In this document: positions 1-16,286 of the stretch, piece by piece | How positions within the stretch are numbered: the stretch's first letter is position 1 | Layout of the letters: the number at the start of each line of letters is the position of its first letter | Assembly (NCBI GenBank): GCA_946477505.1 | Contig: CAMKYP010000002.1 | Coordinates: 1-35,459, forward strand | Length of the DNA: 35,459 nucleotides | Direction: 5' to 3' | From: an uncultured Dechloromonas sp. | GTDB lineage: Bacteria; Pseudomonadota; Gammaproteobacteria; Burkholderiales; Rhodocyclaceae | The notes under the pieces: model-generated | What the model saw: only the letters and a program-made list of their open reading frames with translations | Told to the model about the DNA's origin: nothing | Databases searched by the model: none | Position numbers and translations under genes: made by a program

Positions 1-20
1 AAAAGTGACTCGATTTTATG

Positions 21-2249
21 TCACCCTTGGCAGACGAAATTTCGGGGGAAGCTCATTTTGTTGCTGGGATGGACGTAAAAGCTTCTGTCGTCTCCTCCTC
101 GAACTGTTTCCATGCCGTATGCTCGCTGTGCTTCCTCCATGCTTCGATGCCACATCTTCTCAAGTCGTCCTTGGCAGACCGAATTAGGCAGGGGCAGGTT
201 TGCTGATATTTTTTTAAGGTCGAGAAGGCCCAGGCGTATTTCAGGTACGAAGCCTGCAGGTCGAGATGCGTACGGCCGGAAACTGTTGAGCTTTTTTGGA
301 ATGTTGAAGCCGACGCACCAAACATTGGGTGGGCTCGCAGCTTCAAGCATTTCCAGCAAATAATCGTGCTCGTGGTCTTTTCGGCCGATCAGCACATCCA
401 GGTCAGCTTGAAGGACGAAGCGCGTCGATACCTGTCCAAATGCCCACAATTGGGCGAACAGTGGCGCACCCGAATGAGTGTGCGTTGCAGTAATTCCGTT
501 GATGGAGAACCAGTTGGCGTAGGTTGCTTCAATTACTTCCGCGTCTTCTGGTGCCACCCATACAGCATCGATGACGCCGTTGGTTTTCAGCTCGTCGGCA
601 CTATCCAGCAGGGCTTGGAGATCGCCCGTAGTGTATTGACGAAGGTATGCCCCCACGAAAGGATCAATCGCAACCACCACCTTGGCGAAGAGCCTTGGGG
701 TTGATAACTGAAAAACGATATGCGCAACCTGCTCTCGGAAGGTGGCGTGGTCCTGCGGGCATGCCTTTATGAGTAGAGTGACATCATTTGCGACAAGCGC
801 CTTGGTGGCCGGGGCCTTGGGTAAAGTTGCCAGCGGGTGTAGTTCGCGCACTAGACCATCATAAAAAGCAGCAAAGCCATGCAGTTCGGCCAACACCTCA
901 TGTTGCCGTTTGGTGCTGTTTCTGCGCACCAGTTCGCCATCCGGCCAACCAAGGACGCCCAGCGCGTAAAGGCGAGCAGCAGAATCCAAAAATCTCGATG
1001 GTGCGTATGGCTGGATGTCGCGCCCGATATCGATGTAGGTCAGGCGACCTGTAGAAAAGCGTAGGTTCTCTCTCTTGATATTGCTGGCCACTAAGCCGGC
1101 TTGCGCGAGGTCGAGCAAGAAACCTCGTACCTCATCAAGGGGAATGTTTGTACCGATCGTCTCAAGTGGTTTGTCTCGATAGCGGCAAAATGTCGCTCCG
1201 GACTCCGAAAACGAATGATGAAAAACGGGGATGCGGCCCTTGGCGCTGATTGATGCTTTGGCCAGTTGGGCGATATCGGTCTGTTTTGCGGTGTGAGGAT
1301 AAAATAACTTGACGACATATTCACCTTGTCGCCAAACACATCCCTCCATGCCGAAGCCAAGGAACTCTCCCGGTTCCGAAAGTGAAGCAAGCCACGTCTG
1401 ACTAGCCGAGGCGAGTTCTTCTCTGACACGCCGATGGGCACCGATTTTTTCGTTGTTCGTTGTCGTCTGGCCGCGTAATGAATAGTGGCAATAGACTGGA
1501 TACGGGAGGATTGCAGCCTCATCGGCTCGGAAGAAAAGCAATTGGGCTACAAGCCAATGATCTTCTGCGCTGCGGATTGATGGGTATCGAATGCCGCATC
1601 GTGTTCGGAGGAGCAGGTTGCAAGAAGGGAGTTCGTTGACCGATTGCCCGAAGCAGAATGCCTCAATGAACTGAACCAGTTGTTCGCGATCGAGCAAAAT
1701 ATCAGGGTTGGCTATGTTGTCTGGTTTGACCGGAACTCGGTCTCTTTCCAGGTGGTTGCTACCTAGGACAAAGCTTGCACCCTTGGATTCTCCTGCGCAT
1801 ACCAGAGTATCTACTGACGTCGATGAACAAAGCAGGTCATCCGGGTCCAAGCGCGCAACCCAGCGTGCATTGGGTAGATCAGATTCAACAAAATCAAGAA
1901 TGGCATTTCTGGCCAGTGCAGCACTGCCACAATGCCCTTTCAGCAAAACCAGTCCGGGATGTTCAAGCAGATCGGCAATCTCGGTTTGCCAATCATCGGT
2001 GGAATTGTCATCCAGTAGAACAACGGCACAGTGCCCCTCGGTTAAGGTTTGGCTCAGTGCTGACTCCAGGGCGAAATAGAGTGTTGACGCCTGGTTGTGC
2101 AATGGCATCGCAATGATGACAGCGGCCGATTGTGCGTAGCTGCTGATTTCCCCCATCGTTCGCAGATTGCGTGGGCACAAAATCGCTTCTTCCTTGATTG
2201 GTGCTCGAAACCCGTCAAACGGGTCATCCCTAAGTGCGCGGCTACTCAT
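21..2249 (-). CDS. Three-domain protein: GT2 glycosyltransferase, kinase-like domain, second glycosyltransferase-like domain
   Basis: A 742-residue protein with three regions. Residues about 43-260 look like a family 2 glycosyltransferase, with LLDDNS near the start and an RLDPDD acidic motif at 133-138. Residues about 295-430 resemble a protein-kinase fold: a glycine-rich GFGMEG, VVK with a candidate ATP lysine near 314, a catalytic-loop-like NIKREN at 390-395 and IDIGRD at 406-411. The usual catalytic aspartate of the D-x-K-x-x-N loop is asparagine here, so this may be a pseudokinase. Residues about 489-742 resemble a second sugar transferase with a D-x-D-like ADLD near 616-618. I chose the start at 2249 because its ATG overlaps the TGA of the upstream gene (ATGA); a start at 2288 is open but overlaps by 43 bases. 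It is last in the operon seen. The domain order is unfamiliar to me; substrate and activity are unknown. Confidence 0.75.
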   Translation of the reverse strand: MSSRALRDDPFDGFRAPIKEEAILCPRNLRTMGEISSYAQSAAVIIAMPLHNQASTLYFALESALSQTLTEGHCAVVLLDDNSTDDWQTEIADLLEHPGLVLLKGHCGSAALARNAILDFVESDLPNARWVARLDPDDLLCSSTSVDTLVCAGESKGASFVLGSNHLERDRVPVKPDNIANPDILLDREQLVQFIEAFCFGQSVNELPSCNLLLRTRCGIRYPSIRSAEDHWLVAQLLFFRADEAAILPYPVYCHYSLRGQTTTNNEKIGAHRRVREELASASQTWLASLSEPGEFLGFGMEGCVWRQGEYVVKLFYPHTAKQTDIAQLAKASISAKGRIPVFHHSFSESGATFCRYRDKPLETIGTNIPLDEVRGFLLDLAQAGLVASNIKRENLRFSTGRLTYIDIGRDIQPYAPSRFLDSAARLYALGVLGWPDGELVRRNSTKRQHEVLAELHGFAAFYDGLVRELHPLATLPKAPATKALVANDVTLLIKACPQDHATFREQVAHIVFQLSTPRLFAKVVVAIDPFVGAYLRQYTTGDLQALLDSADELKTNGVIDAVWVAPEDAEVIEATYANWFSINGITATHTHSGAPLFAQLWAFGQVSTRFVLQADLDVLIGRKDHEHDYLLEMLEAASPPNVWCVGFNIPKKLNSFRPYASRPAGFVPEIRLGLLDLKKISANLPLPNSVCQGRLEKMWHRSMEEAQRAYGMETVRGGDDRSFYVHPSNKMSFPRNFVCQG

Positions 2250-3034
2250 TGCAACTCGTCCGCCGTTAGAGAAAACAACTCGAAACATCGAGACATGAAT
2301 CGCTGGCGAATCTCAAGGGACATTCGATGGCCGTGCAATGCCAAGAAGTGTCGAAGTGCATTGGTTTTTTCGGGGCCTGGTCGAGAAAGTGCGTTCGGAT
2401 AGGCATTCAGATTCCATGTTGCGGTGTGGCGGCCGGTGAACGAAATCCGGGTTTCAGGAAGGTCGAGCATTCGAATTGCCAAATCCCTGTCATGGCAACA
2501 GACGAGACTCTCTCGGAATCCACCGGCCGCGACGAGTTTGGTCGCAGTTGCAAAAGTGTTGCTTCCCTGCCAACCAGGATTGCCGATCAGGAAATCATTG
2601 ACCGCCAGGATTTTGAGGGGAGGGCGCGGGATTTCCTGCCCCTCAACGCAAATCCGCAAACCCGAGATCACTACATCCGGCCAAGATTCGCTTTCGGCCG
2701 TGCTCATGCAGAGGGCTAGATGGTCGGTATCCCACCGGTCATCATCGTCGAGGATTGCGATGTAGGATTCAGGCCAAGCTTGCTGGATAAAGGCGAGGCC
2801 GGTGTTCCAAGTGCCGGCAACACCTGAGGCGCGGGCATTCTCAAGGAAATGGATTTCGGTGGCTGGTATCAACGCCCGAATGGCTTGGCGCGCATTGGTG
2901 GGTAACCCCTGGCGATCAGCAACAATTACTAGAGCATCTGGCAGACGAGACTGTTGGGCAATGCTTGGGATTGATGTCGTCAGTAGCGCTTCAACTCTTG
3001 GACAGGTTGCGACAAGGCCGATGATTTGGGTCAC
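2246..3034 (-). CDS. Family 2 glycosyltransferase
   Basis: A 262-residue protein with the N-terminal layout of GT2 glycosyltransferases: a beta-strand start (IIGLVATCP), then an ILDDDDRW nucleotide-sugar/metal motif with the aspartates at about 96-99. A WQGSNTF segment follows near the acceptor side. The start is taken as GTG at 3034. A GGAGG ribosome site lies five bases upstream, and the GTG overlaps the upstream TGA as GTGA, so translation is probably coupled. An in-frame start at 3178 would put about 48 residues inside the preceding gene and has no support. It probably transfers a sugar from a nucleotide donor to a product shared with its operon partners; donor and acceptor cannot be told. 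Confidence 0.8.
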   Translation of the reverse strand: MTQIIGLVATCPRVEALLTTSIPSIAQQSRLPDALVIVADRQGLPTNARQAIRALIPATEIHFLENARASGVAGTWNTGLAFIQQAWPESYIAILDDDDRWDTDHLALCMSTAESESWPDVVISGLRICVEGQEIPRPPLKILAVNDFLIGNPGWQGSNTFATATKLVAAGGFRESLVCCHDRDLAIRMLDLPETRISFTGRHTATWNLNAYPNALSRPGPEKTNALRHFLALHGHRMSLEIRQRFMSRCFELFSLTADELQ

Positions 3035-3930
3035 TCGACCTCCGAACGGTGAGCTGCTGTCCCGGCCCGTGACCGCCAATCTTCGTAGATTTTTTGCCAC
3101 GATGGTGACGTTTCCTGCGTCAAGAGAGGAGGGCGAAGCTTTTCTGGAACATAGTGCCCATCGCGAAACCGTCCGCATAACCGACAGGCAGTGTCCATCA
3201 GATCGCGCATTTCATCACTCGGCGGGGGCAATCGACTCCTTCCTCGCTGGAGGCCCAGTACGCGGTCGATTCCTCCTGCTATTGCGCAGGGGTAATAGCC
3301 TTGCGGGGTCAAACCCAACCCGCATGTGCTCGCGATAGCGCATCCATTTCTATAGTCGGCCCACGAGTACGCAATGCTGTCTTGTGGTGCGAGATTGAAT
3401 GGGCCGAATCCTGGCTGCACATCGCTGTTCTTGGACGAGTTCTCGATGTAGATGGATCTGGGAATCGATTGGAGGATGCGCTTCACCTTTGGTCCATAGC
3501 CATTGGTCACGAGCTGAATCGATGTGTCGGGATATTCAGCGCTATAGCGCTTCAATTCGTCGAGTATTGCCATGAAATCCGGATGGAGAGTCGGTTCCCC
3601 TCCAAGAAGTCGAATACGGCTCCAACTGCGTCGAGCCAACAGTGAATCGTCAACGAATTGTCTGACAGTATCTAGACCGATATGAGCGGCCTCTGGGGCT
3701 TGTGCACTAGACCTGTTGCAGTTATTGCAGCGGAGGTTGCATAGGTAGGTCAGATCGATCTCGATGGTGTCGGTCGCCGCGCGGTATTGGTAACCAAGTA
3801 GCTTGGTCGTTGGGCGCTGGACACGAATCCAACGAAGCAACTTCATCACCGCGAATACGCAGCGATAGAACGTCCTGAATCGACGGGGGAAATCCCGCGA
3901 ATATGAAAAGCCGCTCTTCGAGATGGACAA
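3031..3930 (-). CDS. Radical SAM protein with an auxiliary cysteine region
   Basis: It carries the radical SAM signature C-x3-C-x2-C (CNLRCNNC, residues about 64-71), which binds a 4Fe-4S cluster and S-adenosylmethionine, followed by the LLGGEP motif at about 108-113 and a VTNGYG strand. The C-terminal third has further cysteines arranged like a SPASM or Twitch domain (a cysteine, then GYYPC, then CRLC), so a second iron-sulfur cluster is likely. Such proteins often modify peptides or sugars. The start is uncertain: TTG at 3930 is used because codons 3846-3930 have GC-rich third positions like the rest of the gene, but ATG at 3846 (271 residues) is possible; neither has a strong ribosome site. 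It appears to head the operon with the two glycosyltransferase genes. Confidence 0.8.
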   Translation of the reverse strand: MSISKSGFSYSRDFPRRFRTFYRCVFAVMKLLRWIRVQRPTTKLLGYQYRAATDTIEIDLTYLCNLRCNNCNRSSAQAPEAAHIGLDTVRQFVDDSLLARRSWSRIRLLGGEPTLHPDFMAILDELKRYSAEYPDTSIQLVTNGYGPKVKRILQSIPRSIYIENSSKNSDVQPGFGPFNLAPQDSIAYSWADYRNGCAIASTCGLGLTPQGYYPCAIAGGIDRVLGLQRGRSRLPPPSDEMRDLMDTACRLCGRFRDGHYVPEKLRPPLLTQETSPSWQKIYEDWRSRAGTAAHRSEVE

Positions 3931-4020: not shown

Positions 4021-4932
4021 CTAAGTTGCTATCGCTCTTCCGGCTTCGCCAAGCTTCTTTCTTTGAACATAGGCGCTTTTGCTTTCGTCGTCGTATTTGC
4101 ATTCCCAGGCTGTTTTTCCATCGATTTCCTCCAGTGCTTTTTTCACGGACATTCGACGGCCATAGAGGGCATCACCACTGCTGCTGTCGCCCCAAATGTG
4201 CTTGACGAGCAGGTCGAGTCCAATACGGTTTCCCTCGCATGGTCTCAGCCAACCACTCAGCCAGACAAGTAAGCGTACTGCGGCATCAGTTTTGAGTTTT
4301 CGCAGTTCATCCATATCGACGAAGGTGGTTGGTGCCAAAACCAGTGCTTTGCTGAGCATAGGGTTGAATGCAATCTGCAATTCTCCATCGCCTTGGACTA
4401 CGCCGATCAGTTGAGCCTTCCAGTACGCTTCTGCAGAGTCCTCCTGGTAAATCGAGAATGTTGTGCTGGCCAGTCGTCCCAGGCTTTCCTCAATTCTCGT
4501 AATGGCCGGGCCGCTGATTTTCAGTCCGAGCGTATGGGCAATCTCTCTGGGCGTGACCGCAATGGTTAGGCATTCGAGATTGCTGGCATCAAGGTCTAAT
4601 TTGAGGGCGTCTCGCGCTGAAAGCTGCTCTGCATTCGAGCACTCTTGCCCGGTGCGCGTGGCTCGCCCTGGTTGGGCGGCAATTCGATGGATAGCGAGGA
4701 AGACTTTTTGGTCTTTGATGCACAAGCGGCCAGCAGGGTTTTGCCATCGAAACGTTACGATTTTGTATGGGTAGGTCACATCCAGCGGTGATTCGCTACG
4801 CGCTCCATGCATGATGGGACGGAATAGACCATCGGCTAAGCAGTGTGAGGTATCGATTCGTGCGTGATCAAAGACGATGCCTTTGACAGAGATTTCACGT
4901 TTTTTTGCGGTGAGAGATTTTGTATTTGTCAT
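4021..4932 (-). CDS. IncQ-type RepC-like replication initiator
   Basis: A 303-residue protein resembling the RepC initiator of IncQ plasmids. In particular, the N-terminal block DTSHCLADGLFRPI (about 27-40) followed by LDVTY (50-54) matches, from memory, the start of RSF1010 RepC, which has a similar HCL..GLFR..LDVTY order. The later part has the paired winged-helix character of such initiators (RLLVWLSGW, then MSVKKALEEI). RepC binds iterons and opens the origin; IncQ plasmids also need RepA helicase and RepB primase, which are absent here. The gene is followed after about 90 bases by the radical SAM operon and preceded by AT-rich repeat DNA that could be its target. Its codons are less GC-rich than in the core genes, which suggests transfer. 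Confidence 0.65.
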   Translation of the reverse strand: MTNTKSLTAKKREISVKGIVFDHARIDTSHCLADGLFRPIMHGARSESPLDVTYPYKIVTFRWQNPAGRLCIKDQKVFLAIHRIAAQPGRATRTGQECSNAEQLSARDALKLDLDASNLECLTIAVTPREIAHTLGLKISGPAITRIEESLGRLASTTFSIYQEDSAEAYWKAQLIGVVQGDGELQIAFNPMLSKALVLAPTTFVDMDELRKLKTDAAVRLLVWLSGWLRPCEGNRIGLDLLVKHIWGDSSSGDALYGRRMSVKKALEEIDGKTAWECKYDDESKSAYVQRKKLGEAGRAIAT

Positions 4933-5448: not shown

Positions 5449-5524
5449 TGGTGGGTGCTGACGGGGTCGAACCGCCGACATTCGCCTTGTAAGGGCGACG
5501 CTCTACCAACTGAGCTAAGCACCC
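5449..5524 (-). tRNA. tRNA-Val (anticodon TAC)
   Basis: A 76-base gene with a GGGTGCT acceptor strand pairing at the 3' side, a TAGCTCAG D-loop, anticodon stem CGCCC/GGCG around loop CTTACAA (anticodon TAC, valine GTA), a GGTTCGA T-loop and an encoded CCA at 5451-5449. It lies 61 bases downstream of hupB. Accessory DNA begins just beyond its terminator. Confidence 0.95.
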
Positions 5525-12066: not shown

Positions 12067-12093
12067 ATCTATTCTGCCCTCTGAACTGGCTTG

Positions 12094-12115
12094 GTGTCCC
12101 AATCCAGTGTCCCAA
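12094..12115 (+). repeat. Two GTGTCCCAA repeats before the integrase, possible arm-binding sites
   Basis: GTGTCCCAA occurs at 12094-12102 and 12107-12115, 13 bases apart, and again at 17983-17991 near the right end inside a dyad. Shared short motifs near both ends and next to the integrase gene are typical of arm-type sites bound by tyrosine integrases. Confidence 0.5.
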
Positions 12116-12147
12116 ATCACCACCGGGACGGTTCATGCGAGGGCCGT

Positions 12148-13635
12148 ATGTCCTATCGTTTGCCGGCCAATCTTCACCGCAACCGACACGGCACCCTATA
12201 CTTCCGCCTTTCCGTTCCTCTTGACCTGCGCCAGATGGTCGGCCAGGGGGAGATTTACCGCAGTCTCGACACGTCCAGCGTGCGCCAGGCTGCGGATGTC
12301 GCTCAAACGCTCAGAATCGAGCTGTGGGCGATTTTCAGGGAGTGTAGGGCTGCAACCATGTCCGAAGGAGAAAAAACGCTGCCAGCGGTCAATATTGAAC
12401 GTCTGCAAGAGTTGGTGCGCTCGACCAAGAAGATTCTGAAGGCCGAAGCGCGTGGCGATGAGTTACAGGCCGATAAGGATGCGCTGCTAGACGAGTTGGC
12501 CAGGGTCAAGGCGCAGCACCGCCGGGAGTTGGCCATAGCCATCAAGTCGAAGATGCCCGGAGGTGCCACCGCAACGGCGCCAGCCAAGCCCACCGGTGGC
12601 AAGACCATCAAGGAGGTGTGGGAACTATACCGCGCTCAGATGGTGGCACTTGGCAAGCAGGGCGATGTGAAGGGCGGTTGGCGGGACGAGGGACGAGCCG
12701 ATATCGACCATTGGCCCCACGTTCGAGACTTCATCGAGCGCATCGGCGGCGACAAACCCATCCGGGAGGTGACAGAGGACGAGGTTATCGACTTCCACGG
12801 CCATGTCATGGTTACACCTGACATCAAGTCGGCGGGTTCGCGCAAAAAGAAGTTAAACAGGGCTGCGGCACTGTTTAAGTTTGCGAAAACGAAGCGCCTA
12901 ATTCAAGACGACTTCGCCGATCTTTTCAAATTTACAGGAACGATTAAGAAGAACTCATTCCTCAAGTTTTCAACAGATGACTTGAAAGCATTATTCGAGT
13001 CTGTCGCATACCGGGAATGTCAGTTTGACACGCCGTCAAAATACTGGCTTCCCGTGCTTGGTCTTTTCACGGGTGCGCGATTGAATGAGCTTTGCCAGTT
13101 GCTCAAGACTGACATTGGCCGGCATGGTGAAATCGACACGATCAGCATTATGGATGAGGAAGAGAACAAGCGGCTAAAGACAGAGGCATCGCGTCGTATT
13201 GTTCCAATTCATTCAAAGTTAATCGAGCTTGGCTTTCTTGAATTTGTGAAGTCAGCACCGGCAGGAAGATTGTTCCCTCACCTGAGAGAAGATCCATTGA
13301 AGCCAGGCAGCTACATTGCGAAGGCAACGGAGGACTTTACGAGCTACAGGCGCACAGTAGGCGTTGGCAACAAAGAGGGGGAGGGCAAGAGTCGTAAGGC
13401 TTTTCATAGCTTCCGCTCAACGTTTATTGATGCGATGCGCCATGCCAAGCCTGAGCCGGTTCCGGAAGAGCGCAGAACCCGTCTGGTCGGGCATGAATAT
13501 GATGGCACCCATAACACAAGTTATGATGGTGGCGACGCGCGGGATATGTTCCCCATCGAAACGCTAAAGGCTGACGTTGAGCGCGTGCAGTTTGACGTGG
13601 CATTCACTCCCTACGGATTAAGGTATGTGTCATAA
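12148..13635 (+). CDS. Tyrosine recombinase (integrase) of the element
   Basis: A 495-residue phage-type integrase. The N-terminal segment (MSYRLPANLHRNRHG, then YFRLSVPLDLR) is like the short DUF6538-type domain found at the start of such integrases. A coiled region follows at about 90-160, then the core-binding domain. The catalytic residues are arginine 311 (GARLNEL), histidine 420 and arginine 423 (HSFR), histidine 449 (VGHEYDG) and the nucleophile tyrosine 459 (NTSYDGG). It should recombine the tRNA-His site with the circular element. ATG at 12148 is preceded by GAGGG; a TTG at 12091 in frame would run through the GTGTCCCAA repeats and is less likely. No excisionase is recognised, though one of the small genes could serve. 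Confidence 0.92.
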   Translation: MSYRLPANLHRNRHGTLYFRLSVPLDLRQMVGQGEIYRSLDTSSVRQAADVAQTLRIELWAIFRECRAATMSEGEKTLPAVNIERLQELVRSTKKILKAEARGDELQADKDALLDELARVKAQHRRELAIAIKSKMPGGATATAPAKPTGGKTIKEVWELYRAQMVALGKQGDVKGGWRDEGRADIDHWPHVRDFIERIGGDKPIREVTEDEVIDFHGHVMVTPDIKSAGSRKKKLNRAAALFKFAKTKRLIQDDFADLFKFTGTIKKNSFLKFSTDDLKALFESVAYRECQFDTPSKYWLPVLGLFTGARLNELCQLLKTDIGRHGEIDTISIMDEEENKRLKTEASRRIVPIHSKLIELGFLEFVKSAPAGRLFPHLREDPLKPGSYIAKATEDFTSYRRTVGVGNKEGEGKSRKAFHSFRSTFIDAMRHAKPEPVPEERRTRLVGHEYDGTHNTSYDGGDARDMFPIETLKADVERVQFDVAFTPYGLRYVS

Positions 13636-13665
13636 TTAAGATGCATTCAATAAAAGGGAGGAACT

Positions 13666-14247
13666 ATGCTTAAGACTGCATTCGCAGCTCTGGCTTTGAT
13701 TGTGCCGTTCTGCACAGTTCAAGCAAAGGAGCAAACAAAGCAACCGCAAAAGTTTGTTTCATCGGCTCTTGAGCTAAAGGGCGCTCGGTTAGGTTTGTCT
13801 ATGAGTGACATCAAAGGAGATTTCTCTATCTCTTGCAGCAAAGACAAATGCGATGACTACTATTTCCCAAAAATTGGTGGAAGTCTGTCCGTAATTCCCG
13901 ATAAGAGGACATTTGCAGGCGCACCAATTACACGTTACAGCTTTGAGTTCTACGAAGATCGGCTTGTTGAAATGCACGTCTGTGTTGAGCCAGATTACTT
14001 TCAACTGATCTTGCTGGCGTTGCAAGAAAAATACGGCGAACCTCAAGTCAAGGAAAAGGATGTTTTGCAAAATGGCTACGGCGCAACCTTCAATAACCTC
14101 AAGGGAACATGGAAGGCGAAGGATGGCTCAACGATGCGACTGGAGCGATTCTATCCAAACATGGAATCGTCTTGCGTCATACTCAAAGACAACGTAGCGT
14201 TAAGCAAGAAACCGACGACGGGTAAGAACCCGATGGCTGACCTATAG
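13666..14247 (+). CDS. Secreted protein of unknown function
   Basis: A 193-residue protein with a clear signal peptide (MLKTAFAALALIVPFCTVQA, cut after about residue 20), so it is exported to the periplasm or beyond. The mature part has four cysteines that could form disulfides (CSKDKC early, then one in HVCVEP and one in SSCVIL). I do not recognise a family. It has a strong GGGAGG ribosome site and lies 30 bases after the integrase and 21 before the H-NS-like gene. As cargo of a small element it could affect surface properties, for example superinfection, but nothing in the sequence proves this. Confidence 0.75.
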   Translation: MLKTAFAALALIVPFCTVQAKEQTKQPQKFVSSALELKGARLGLSMSDIKGDFSISCSKDKCDDYYFPKIGGSLSVIPDKRTFAGAPITRYSFEFYEDRLVEMHVCVEPDYFQLILLALQEKYGEPQVKEKDVLQNGYGATFNNLKGTWKAKDGSTMRLERFYPNMESSCVILKDNVALSKKPTTGKNPMADL

Positions 14248-14268
14248 TTCTTTAATCGTGAGGAAATT

Positions 14269-14487
14269 ATGCAGACCATTGACGAACTTAAAGCAGAGCA
14301 GAAACGCCTCGAATCTGAACTGAGCAAGGTCAAAGCAAAGATCAAGCGATTCGACCAAGACCGGGAGCGCGAGAAGGTTAAGCAGGTTCGCAAGCTCATG
14401 GATGAATTGGGCCTGACCATTGAACAGATCACACCCAAGACCCGCAAGCCGCGCAAGGTTAAGCCGTCACCGGCTCCAGCCGCTTAA
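14269..14487 (+). CDS. Small H-NS-like coiled-coil protein lacking the DNA-binding domain
   Basis: A 72-residue protein. Residues 1-50 are a charged coiled coil (DELKAEQKRLESEL) leading to RKLMDELGLTIEQI, the pattern seen in the oligomerisation half of beta-proteobacterial H-NS proteins. It then has a basic linker (TRKPRKVKP) and stops where H-NS proteins continue into the GRGRxP-containing DNA-binding domain. Truncated H-NS proteins on islands are known to antagonise host H-NS. The ribosome site is GAGGAA. The last 29 bases overlap, tail to tail, the end of the serine recombinase gene, so the truncation may have arisen when that module was inserted. The H-NS link rests on short similarity; a generic coiled-coil protein is the alternative. 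Confidence 0.55.
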   Translation: MQTIDELKAEQKRLESELSKVKAKIKRFDQDREREKVKQVRKLMDELGLTIEQITPKTRKPRKVKPSPAPAA

Positions 14488-15136
14488 TCACGCGCTGCAC
14501 CTGAGCAAGTAGCCAGCTCCCACCCTTCGGAGCTGGCACGCCGATTCTGTTAAGTTCGGCCATCATTCCACGTTGAGACAATCCACGCGCCTTCATTCCA
14601 TCGAACAGGGAGCGCAGCTTCTCGGCGTAATCGTCGGCGACCTTCTGACGTGCTTCGACATTGGGACGCAGATTGTCAGCTCCGGCACGACCCAGGACAA
14701 CACCGCGAGACTTCGCGACGGCCAAAGCGTCTTTCGTGCGCTGGCTAATCCGCTTCGCCTCATGCTCGGCAAACGCGGCCATGATGTGAATGGTTAGTTC
14801 GTTCGCTTCGGGCATATCGCACGCGACGAACTTCACTTTCGACTCCATCAGACCGGACACGAAATGCACGTTACGCGCCAGGCGGTCGAGCTTGGCAATG
14901 ATGAGCGTAGCGCCTTTCTTGCGACACGCAGCGAGAGCCGATTTCAACTGGGGGCGCTTCGCCAGGGCGTCCGAACCCTTGCCCGTTTCGACTTCCTGAA
15001 ACTCGGCGACCAACTCCCATTCGCCACCATTCAGGAACCGGCTAACGGCTTCCTTCTGAGCGTCCAGGCCAAGACCGGACGCGCCTTGCTTTTGCGTGCT
15101 GACTCGAAAGTAAGCGATGAACTTGCCGTTTGCCAT
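14459..15136 (-). CDS. Serine recombinase (resolvase/invertase family)
   Basis: A 225-residue small serine recombinase. Serine 13 in YFRVSTQKQ is the nucleophile; KLDRLARN supplies the conserved arginines, and EHEAKRISQRTKDAL leads into the long E helix. A C-terminal helix-turn-helix (GLSQRGMMAELNRIG) binds DNA. It may resolve multimers, invert a segment or move its own module. The start at 15136 has a GGGAGG site. It is the only gene of the element on the minus strand and overlaps the H-NS-like gene by 29 bases at the 3' ends. No inverted or direct res-type repeats were obvious beside it. Confidence 0.9.
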   Translation of the reverse strand: MANGKFIAYFRVSTQKQGASGLGLDAQKEAVSRFLNGGEWELVAEFQEVETGKGSDALAKRPQLKSALAACRKKGATLIIAKLDRLARNVHFVSGLMESKVKFVACDMPEANELTIHIMAAFAEHEAKRISQRTKDALAVAKSRGVVLGRAGADNLRPNVEARQKVADDYAEKLRSLFDGMKARGLSQRGMMAELNRIGVPAPKGGSWLLAQVQRVIKRLEPVTA

Positions 15137-15187
15137 TGTTGCCTCCCTTGCTGACTACAGAACAAGACGTTCGTTTAATGTGTGGTC

Positions 15188-15217
15188 AGTATGCCATGCC
15201 GAGCATGTAGGAGTCAA
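15188..15217 (-). promoter_or_regulatory. Possible promoter of the serine recombinase
   Basis: On the minus strand TTGACT (15217-15212) and CATACT (15193-15188) are 18 bases apart, about 50 bases before the recombinase start. This is in the divergent region shared with the gene at 15295. Confidence 0.45.
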
Positions 15218-15294
15218 TAGTGAATCTTATACTTGCATTCGCGTATGATTTATGTTAATGTCTCGTCCATAGTGAATAACCAGGACGCAACAGC

Positions 15295-15855
15295 ATGACC
15301 ACCACCGAACTTCTGAGCCGCCAGGCAGCCGCCGAATGGTTGGCGCAGCAGCTCCAGGACAAGAACGCCGAACAGTGGGCGCTCTTCCTCCGCAACAACG
15401 CGAACAATGCACGCCGCGCCATCTACCGCCTGCCGGTCGAGCAGATCGGGCGCAACTCCTTCTATCAGCCCGACGAGCTGGCGAAGTTCGTCCAGTTCGA
15501 GCAAGGCCGACAGCTCGGCCAGCTCAAACTTACCGGAAGAGCCGCCGAAGTCCTCCAGGCATTCGGAACCGGAACCAGAGGCGCAACCGCTAACGGGCGC
15601 AAATGGAAGGGCGGTAGCGCAAACATCGGCCTGACCAATAGCGGCGAACGCTTCGTTCAGACCATGATTAACGAGCCGCTTACCGTGTTCGCAATGACAC
15701 CCGCCCAGGCTGTCGAATTCGGCAAAGAGCTGATCGAAGCAGGCCAGGCCGCACAACGTCAGAACAGCCAGGCCAACACCGGCAACGGTGCCGACATGAC
15801 CGGCTACAAAACCGTCACCGACAATCAAGACATCCTGATTCAGCGAAAGGGCTAA
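15295..15855 (+). CDS. Unknown element protein, 186 residues
   Basis: Not recognised. It starts MTTTELLSRQAAAEWLAQQL, which could be a helix-turn-helix or winged-helix start like those of proteins reading a planting site (AAEWL), and has a QPDELAKFV segment of the same type. The later part is rich in glutamine, asparagine and glycine. It has no membrane segment or signal peptide. An AGGA site lies upstream. It is the first of four same-strand genes ending in the Rep-like gene and is 2 bases from the next one, so they form an operon. A regulatory or replication accessory role is likely from position only. Confidence 0.65.
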   Translation: MTTTELLSRQAAAEWLAQQLQDKNAEQWALFLRNNANNARRAIYRLPVEQIGRNSFYQPDELAKFVQFEQGRQLGQLKLTGRAAEVLQAFGTGTRGATANGRKWKGGSANIGLTNSGERFVQTMINEPLTVFAMTPAQAVEFGKELIEAGQAAQRQNSQANTGNGADMTGYKTVTDNQDILIQRKG

Positions 15856-15857
15856 TC

Positions 15858-16286
15858 ATGGCAAGCAAGACAGCAAAACCCGTCAAGACCGACACCGTTA
15901 GTCTTGCCGAAGCGGCATACATGCTGCAATCCGAACTCGGCAACTTTCGTCAGTGGGTAGCGTTCCTTAACGACACCAACAAGGGCGATCCGACCAGCGT
16001 TTGCGGTATCAGCCTTCATGCCTGCGCTCACATGCACGACGGCCACCAGTTCAGACCCCGTTACGCGCTTATCGACGTGCTGGAGTTCATTAGTCGAGTC
16101 CAGGCAATTGAACCGAACGCCAGGCCGGCGAAGATTCAGCCGATCCCGCTCATGATCCACAAGGGCCGCTATTGGAAGCTCAACAAGTTCGACAAGGAAG
16201 GCAACCCCGTAACCACAACCATGCGGCACCTTGCACCCTTGAACGGCGCAAAGAGCAGCACCGGCACAGCCGCAACGATGCACTGA
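15858..16286 (+). CDS. Unknown element protein, 142 residues, possibly DNA-binding
   Basis: Not recognised. VSLAEAAYMLQSELGNFRQWVAFLND at about 14-39 resembles the start of a MerR/excisionase-like winged helix, and RPRYALIDVLEFI at about 66-78 resembles the part of such proteins that reads the target name (R-Y-x-x-x-D-V). This would fit an excisionase or a regulator, a role otherwise empty in the element. It begins 2 bases after the stop of the preceding gene and precedes the 57-residue gene by 58 bases. Confidence 0.65.
   Translation: MASKTAKPVKTDTVSLAEAAYMLQSELGNFRQWVAFLNDTNKGDPTSVCGISLHACAHMHDGHQFRPRYALIDVLEFISRVQAIEPNARPAKIQPIPLMIHKGRYWKLNKFDKEGNPVTTTMRHLAPLNGAKSSTGTAATMH

Follow-up and report, generated by a model that had tools for sequence, protein, structure and literature searches.

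The closest published precedent for a polypeptide that joins a kinase domain to glycosyltransferases is K. pneumoniae O7 ORF6, in which a methyltransferase-kinase, a coiled coil and two successive GT2 domains follow one another and the kinase caps the glycan chain with phosphate, an activity lost in the D441A mutant (PMC11231755). Chondroitin polymerase K4CP and heparosan synthase PmHS2 carry several GT-A domains per chain and have no kinase-like domain. Among proteins with an altered kinase fold, the pseudokinase SelO is an AMPylase despite having no catalytic Asp (PMC12409994), and ActPs2, a bacterial Ser/Thr pseudokinase family, carries Arg at the beta-3 Lys position and in most cases a DFG motif with a deletion (PMC12599244).

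Here we describe a family that combines these traits in an order of its own, starting from a window of 35,459 nucleotides of an uncultured Dechloromonas sp. Like O7 ORF6, the family unites a kinase-fold domain with two GT2 modules in one polypeptide of glycan assembly. The O7 kinase, however, is N-terminal, depends on its Asp and is accompanied by a methyltransferase and a coiled coil, whereas the domain studied here lies between glycosyltransferase domains and carries Asn. The family resembles K4CP and PmHS2 in having several GT-A domains per chain, but has three GT-A-like domains and is only ~10–13% identical to these polymerases. It shares with SelO a kinase fold without the canonical catalytic Asp in which the nucleotide-binding residues are kept; SelO is not fused to glycosyltransferase domains and has no sequence match to the family, and the inverted ATP and AMPylation are features of SelO. 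As in ActPs2, Asn replaces the HRD Asp (PMC12599244); unlike in ActPs2, the Lys (K327) and the metal Asp (D420) never vary, and the domain has glycosyltransferases on both sides. Glycosyltransferase-kinase fusions and bacterial pseudokinases are thus known kinds of protein, while the order GT2 / kinase-like with Asn / GT-A-like / GT2 is undescribed in the searches made: no family with the same fusion order was found in Pfam, NCBIfam, PHROGs, PADLOC, the PDB or open-access papers. The first-pass annotation, which knew of no described family with this order, was right in that respect, although a kinase / GT2 / GT2 fusion has been published (PMC11231755).

In the window, the fusion gene is interrupted (Table 1). 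Its open reading frame has a first possible ATG at 2288, which would give 755 amino acids (2288 to 21, minus strand); residue numbers in this text refer to that form and equal those of the first-pass annotation plus 13. The shorter extent tabulated is the likelier gene, because its ATG at 2249 forms an ATGA overlap with the end of the partner GT2 gene (stop codon 2248–2246).

Table 1. Positions in the window of the fusion gene, its domains and key codons, and the adjoining genes.
Feature	Position	Strand	Details
Interrupted fusion gene GT2 / kinase-like / GT-A-like	21..2249	-	Open reading frame and translation; 742 aa as read
Domain 1, GT2 glycosyltransferase	1419..2183	-	Residues 36-290; Pfam PF00535 E 1.5e-9
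Kinase-like domain	813..1439	-	Residues 284-492; AlphaFold pLDDT 90.3, pTM 0.85
Codon of K327 (beta-3 lysine equivalent)	1308..1310	-	Lys in 26/26 members
Codon of N403, Asn replacing the HRD catalytic Asp	1080..1082	-	Asn 25/26, Thr 1/26
Codon of N408 (catalytic-loop Asn)	1065..1067	-	Asn 26/26
Codon of D420 (DFG-type metal Asp, here DIG)	1029..1031	-	Asp in all 26 members with the domain
Domain 3, GT-A-like	56..806	-	Residues 495-744 (about 495-741); DxD 629/631
End of IS3-family-like repeat interrupting the fusion gene	1..55	-	Encodes the foreign tail MSFPRNFVCQG-stop
Partner GT2 glycosyltransferase gene	2246..3034	-	Pfam PF00535; ~262 aa from GTG at 3034, longest ORF to 3178
Partner radical SAM gene	3031..3930	-	Pfam PF04055 E 2.5e-9; CxxxCxxC and conserved C-terminal Cys motifs
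RepC/Rep3-type replication initiator adjoining the cassette	4021..4932	-	Pfam PF06504 E 4e-28
tRNA-Val; island with the cassette on its 3' side	5449..5524	-	ARAGORN

The start of the window is a contig edge (G000:C2), and its first 55 bases match the end of contig G000:C24 exactly (55/55 bases). On a Cupriavidus plasmid, 29 of 30 bases of this repeat recur 38 bp upstream of an IS3-family transposase gene. Native coding ends at base 56, near residue 744, and the repeat supplies the final ~11 residues. The gene is therefore broken: it terminates, at the contig edge, in 55 bases that belong to the end of an IS3-family-like repeat, and base 21 as the natural end of the protein is ruled out on the same ground. 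The third GT2 domain of complete relatives is missing from this copy, which the insertion has probably left non-functional. Such interruption occurs elsewhere too, since the fusion gene is also split in L052 (4267–5565 and 10004–12337) and L055 (9713–10771 and 10741–12903), in both cases near the start of the kinase-like domain.

Relatives of the fusion protein are encoded at 25 loci found in a search of 85,000 species genomes, and one more lies on a 607-kb Salinivibrio plasmid. Conservation of the 25 related loci over full or partial length rules out a chance or misread reading frame. The window protein is 38–50% identical to its relatives, 22 of which are single uninterrupted reading frames of ~1000 amino acids that all run past the break in the window into a C-terminal GT2 domain. 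These intact copies come from beta-, gamma- and alphaproteobacteria, Planctomycetota, Myxococcota and one metagenome-assembled genome labelled UBP17. The full architecture of the family is GT2 / kinase-like / GT-A-like / GT2. Two sugar-transferase-like domains around the kinase-like fold had been noticed before; the flanking glycosyltransferases are real, but the family has three, the window protein being truncated by the insertion. Other genomes of the same order as the window gave single-domain matches only, so that the fusion gene occurs rarely and sporadically, a distribution that would be expected of mobile cargo. No relative was found in phage records or viral contigs, and a phage origin was rejected on this ground.

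The first domain scores 38.4 bits against PF00535 (cut-off 23.3), and its GT2 signature is complete, with D94, DxDD at 148–151 and EDH at 242–244 invariant in all 26–27 members that cover them. Profile comparison matches it both to the partner GT2 and to the C-terminal GT2 domain of relatives (PF00535 at 813–942 of the L032 protein). GT2 alone exceeds the Pfam cut-off, and no methyltransferase was found in the chain. Domain 3 has no sequence or profile match to any family, nor did profile comparison detect a relation to domain 1 or to the C-terminal GT2. Its DxD is conserved in 25 members, and in the confident full-length model of the L034 relative the strands and helices of the corresponding region follow a GT-A-like order. 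This relative, from a Rhodocyclales metagenome-assembled genome and complete at 1008 amino acids, was modelled as one confident unit (pLDDT 89, pTM 0.82) in which the kinase-like domain directly adjoins the glycosyltransferase domains, and its best matches in the PDB are K4CP (E 9e-15) and PmHS2.

Does the middle region indeed fold as a kinase? It is modelled with high confidence as a two-lobed fold, and a Foldseek search of the model against the PDB returned 1211 matches at E <= 0.001, of which the best 50 are all protein kinases, with E down to 5e-7; TM-scores to kinases reach only ~0.4–0.5. When the family profile was compared with PDB sequences, kinases also came first, and among the matches listed N403 was aligned to the HRD Asp ('vtsnikRdNlrl...yiDiG' on 'vyrdiklENlml...itDfG'). 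The kinase-like fold with an asparagine at the position of the catalytic aspartate, and with lysine, asparagine and metal aspartate retained, is therefore as the first-pass annotation had it. In Pfam the only signal for the region is a weak one to ABC1, seen in nine of 23 members; for SelO, there was no Pfam match in the 23 members and no match among PDB sequences.

The glycine loop LGxGxEGxV (310–318), with its unusual Glu, is invariant in all 26 members. The catalytic loop reads N403-I-K-R-E-N408 and the metal motif D420-I-G; the catalytic-loop Lys is kept in 25/26 members, and the single Thr at the position of N403 belongs to L046. D424 is lost in five of the 26. For the helix-C Glu that would pair with the Lys, no acidic column above 15/26 was found in residues 332–351. 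Of the residues that mark a canonical kinase, the Asn and the metal Asp are thus present, and the HRD Asp and the helix-C Glu are absent. The asparagine recurs in homologues, and none with a canonical Asp at the position of N403 was found among the 26 members and three proteins of a sister family. Neither of the outcomes named as overturning the first-pass annotation, a middle region of another fold or homologues with the canonical residue, was thus observed.

This sister family emerged from a kinase-profile search of 399 genomes of the phylum and comprises L084, L085 and a protein of Pseudoalteromonas donghaensis (WP_162898086.1). Its members, of ~1120 amino acids, begin with a GT2 domain that is homologous to the product of the partner GT2 gene and continue with a kinase-like domain and another GT-like domain. 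They resemble the window family in having GT2, a kinase-like domain with Asn and a GT-like domain in one protein, and differ from it in that the partner GT2 is fused N-terminally. Over the kinase-like domain their identity to the window protein is only 21–23%, with the motifs CNNIHPKN and LIDYG; the Asn at the catalytic Asp position is kept (3/3), and the Lys, catalytic-loop Asn and metal Asp are the same. Because the same residues are retained at such low identity, the Asn appears functional and old rather than a product of decay; the alignments argue that it is an ancient, functional state that has been kept.

The operons of the sister family (L084:1982-8521, L085:1811-8338, L087:9001-15523) also contain genes for GTP cyclohydrolase II (a NADAR fusion in L084), an asparagine synthase-like protein and an arylamine N-acetyltransferase. 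One copy lies on a mobilizable Pseudoalteromonas plasmid, adjoining tra genes. By its gene content this operon looks like an undescribed small-molecule pathway.

The fusion gene of the window does not stand alone. The partner GT2 gene starts with a GTG that shares bases with the radical SAM stop codon (GTGA), and this overlap, together with the ATGA at the next junction, makes radical SAM, GT2 and fusion gene one tightly coupled operon. The three genes lie downstream of the RepC/Rep3-type initiator gene and the tRNA-Val, and cassette, initiator and tRNA together look like an integrated mobile element; beyond the tRNA-Val follows an ordinary tig-clpP-clpX-lon neighbourhood. A second small mobile-looking stretch, with a DUF6538 protein and a resolvase, occupies 12091–15136 of the window after a tRNA-His. 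The window radical SAM protein is 48–68% identical to those of other cassettes, and C64, C68 and C71 are invariant.

Across 22 cassette loci, the partner GT2 is present in 21, the radical SAM gene in 12 and a further protein, which we call GNGP, in 16; the GT2 gene overlaps or abuts the fusion gene in most cassettes. GNGP is a protein of 250–290 amino acids with the motifs 'GNGP...FN...PSxG...HNWLGERR', encoded by a convergent gene that overlaps the 3' end of the fusion gene (for example L042:12941-13693, with equivalents in 16 loci). It has no Pfam or PDB profile match. The order of its motifs (GNGP, FN, PSxG and a conserved His) resembles that of GT42 (GT42/GT29-like) sialyltransferases. Neither GNGP nor the third glycosyltransferase domain was found elsewhere in the Dechloromonas genome, an absence that is weak evidence given an assembly 89.6% complete. 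Pairwise distances between the four cassette genes correlate at r 0.91–0.97 (Mantel p <= 0.0025), with shared descent contributing; the highest value, 0.97, is that between partner GT2 and fusion protein. From these distances, fusion protein, GT2, radical SAM and GNGP appear to coevolve, shared inheritance being part of the signal.

Genes beside the cassettes point in the direction of sugars. In L054, a sugar-nucleotide gene of epimerase type is transcribed divergently from the cassette, and L037, L038 and L041 have similar genes upstream, the carriers of the epimerase being Vibrio/Photobacterium. A gene of the UDP-glucose dehydrogenase family (UDP-sugar dehydrogenase; L051:8264-9157) directly precedes another cassette, whose product may contain a uronic acid, and Pfam identifies a methyltransferase gene beside the cassette in L042. 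The sugar-nucleotide genes and this methyltransferase fit glycan synthesis. No flippase, polymerase, exporter or lipid-carrier gene was seen to travel with the cassette in the neighbourhoods. In L042, L053 and probably L039 (upstream gene at ~5.6–9.1 kb) the cassette sits between hsdR-like and hsdM/hsdS-like genes of type I restriction, PtuA-like ATPase genes occur in the neighbour set, and in L032 (Rhodocyclus purpureus) a PP2C phosphatase and a canonical Ser/Thr kinase form a gene pair just beyond the cassette (13975–16099).

What might such a protein do? The reading to which we give an even chance is that of a cytosolic glycan synthase built of several modules, the kinase-like one binding ATP/Mg without normal phosphotransfer and serving as a nucleotide-sensing or structural hub. 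An intact member would then be a single-chain synthase of the assembly-line type, in which the GT-A domains of one chain act in turn with the separate partner GT2, often joined by the GT42-like protein and the radical SAM enzyme, and the product would be a short heteroglycan or glycoconjugate. The module would hold ATP and Mg2+ through its glycine loop, beta-3 lysine, catalytic-loop Asn and metal Asp. Phosphate transfer by the usual route would not be expected, because the catalytic base is Asn and a conserved helix-C Glu is lacking; as none of the members retains the catalytic Asp, ordinary phosphotransfer seems unlikely. The module would most likely order, position or gate the glycosyltransferase domains. 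In favour of a glycan synthase are the best structural matches of the full-length model, which are two-GT-domain glycan polymerases, the glycosyltransferase signatures of domain 1, the DxD of domain 3 and the neighbouring sugar-nucleotide genes. The reading is supported as well by the kinase fold, by the conservation of its motifs here and in the sister family, by the close linkage of the partner GT2 gene and its fusion in the sister protein, and by the distance correlations within the cassette. Against the whole reading count the low TM-scores to kinases, the lack of a sequence match for domain 3, the absence of an export or lipid-carrier gene with the cassette and the share of common descent in the distance correlations.

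The same reading is also challenged by two precedents, the pseudokinase SelO, active by other chemistry (PMC12409994), and the O7 ORF6 kinase, which phosphorylates the glycan end (PMC11231755). Both lend some weight to a kinase-like module that is active by another mechanism, in which Asn and other residues would take over from the usual base and phosphate or AMP would be transferred to the growing glycan, to a partner or to the module itself. All nucleotide- and metal-binding positions are kept, among them the catalytic-loop Lys; SelO AMPylates without a catalytic Asp (PMC12409994); O7 ORF6, the closest published fusion of a kinase with two GT2 domains, phosphate-caps its chain (PMC11231755); and the methyltransferase gene of L042 echoes methyl-phosphate caps. 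Yet all members have Asn or Thr in place of the base, with no other invariant Asp nearby, given the losses of D424; O7 ORF6 requires its Asp (PMC11231755), and neither Pfam nor PDB sequences link the family to SelO. We regard such activity as possible but doubtful. Decay to a purely structural relic, a mere spacer of the glycosyltransferase domains that binds no nucleotide, would account for the missing base and helix-C Glu and sit well with a compact, confident full-length model. Nevertheless, glycine loop, Lys, Asn and metal Asp show no variation between phyla or in the sister family; since such constancy is not expected without nucleotide binding, we consider a relic improbable.

The islands in which some cassettes lie raise a quite different possibility, that the cassette is an anti-phage or competition system whose glycosyltransferases modify a phage receptor or component or make an inhibitory small molecule. 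By reading of the sequence, hsdR- and hsdM-like genes flank the cassettes of L042 and L053, type I-E-like CRISPR (cas) genes adjoin L036 and DUF262-like genes adjoin L051; PADLOC profile matches number 284 near cassettes and 40 in control stretches of the same contigs; and the sister operon resembles a small-molecule pathway in its gene content, with one copy on a mobilizable plasmid. The unit of the PADLOC numbers, however, is the model and not the protein, and the highest-ranking models, for type I restriction, derive from a few loci. The cassette itself is not represented in PADLOC, its association with defence genes can be explained by shared islands, and several copies lie amid housekeeping genes (L043, L044, L031). 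Because the counts are of profiles and other cassettes are found among housekeeping genes, we treat the enrichment as a lead and not as a result; a defence role is very improbable and was set aside as the main reading.

The first-pass annotation had offered a regulated or scaffolding glycosyltransferase, a role that we only infer, and a sugar kinase with altered chemistry, for which the present analysis gives no support. A bolder version, which we think unlikely, is that the family represents a new class of glycan synthases, mobile and present in at least three phyla, in which an ancient Asn-bearing kinase-fold module performs a distinct ATP-dependent step that couples the glycosyltransferase domains. 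If so, this step would be non-canonical phosphate or AMP transfer or ATP-gated switching, and the module would be shared with the small-molecule-like operon of the sister family.

Multi-module glycosyltransferases with an active capping kinase are already known; here, a conserved 'dead' residue is found in a domain placed between glycosyltransferases. The cassette, with its glycosyltransferase genes, radical SAM enzyme and GT42-like protein, predicts an unknown glycoconjugate. The Asn state is kept across Pseudomonadota, Planctomycetota and Myxococcota and in a distant sister family, and the family therefore offers a clean test case for what pseudokinases do inside enzymes, be it nucleotide-gated control, scaffolding or unrecognised chemistry.
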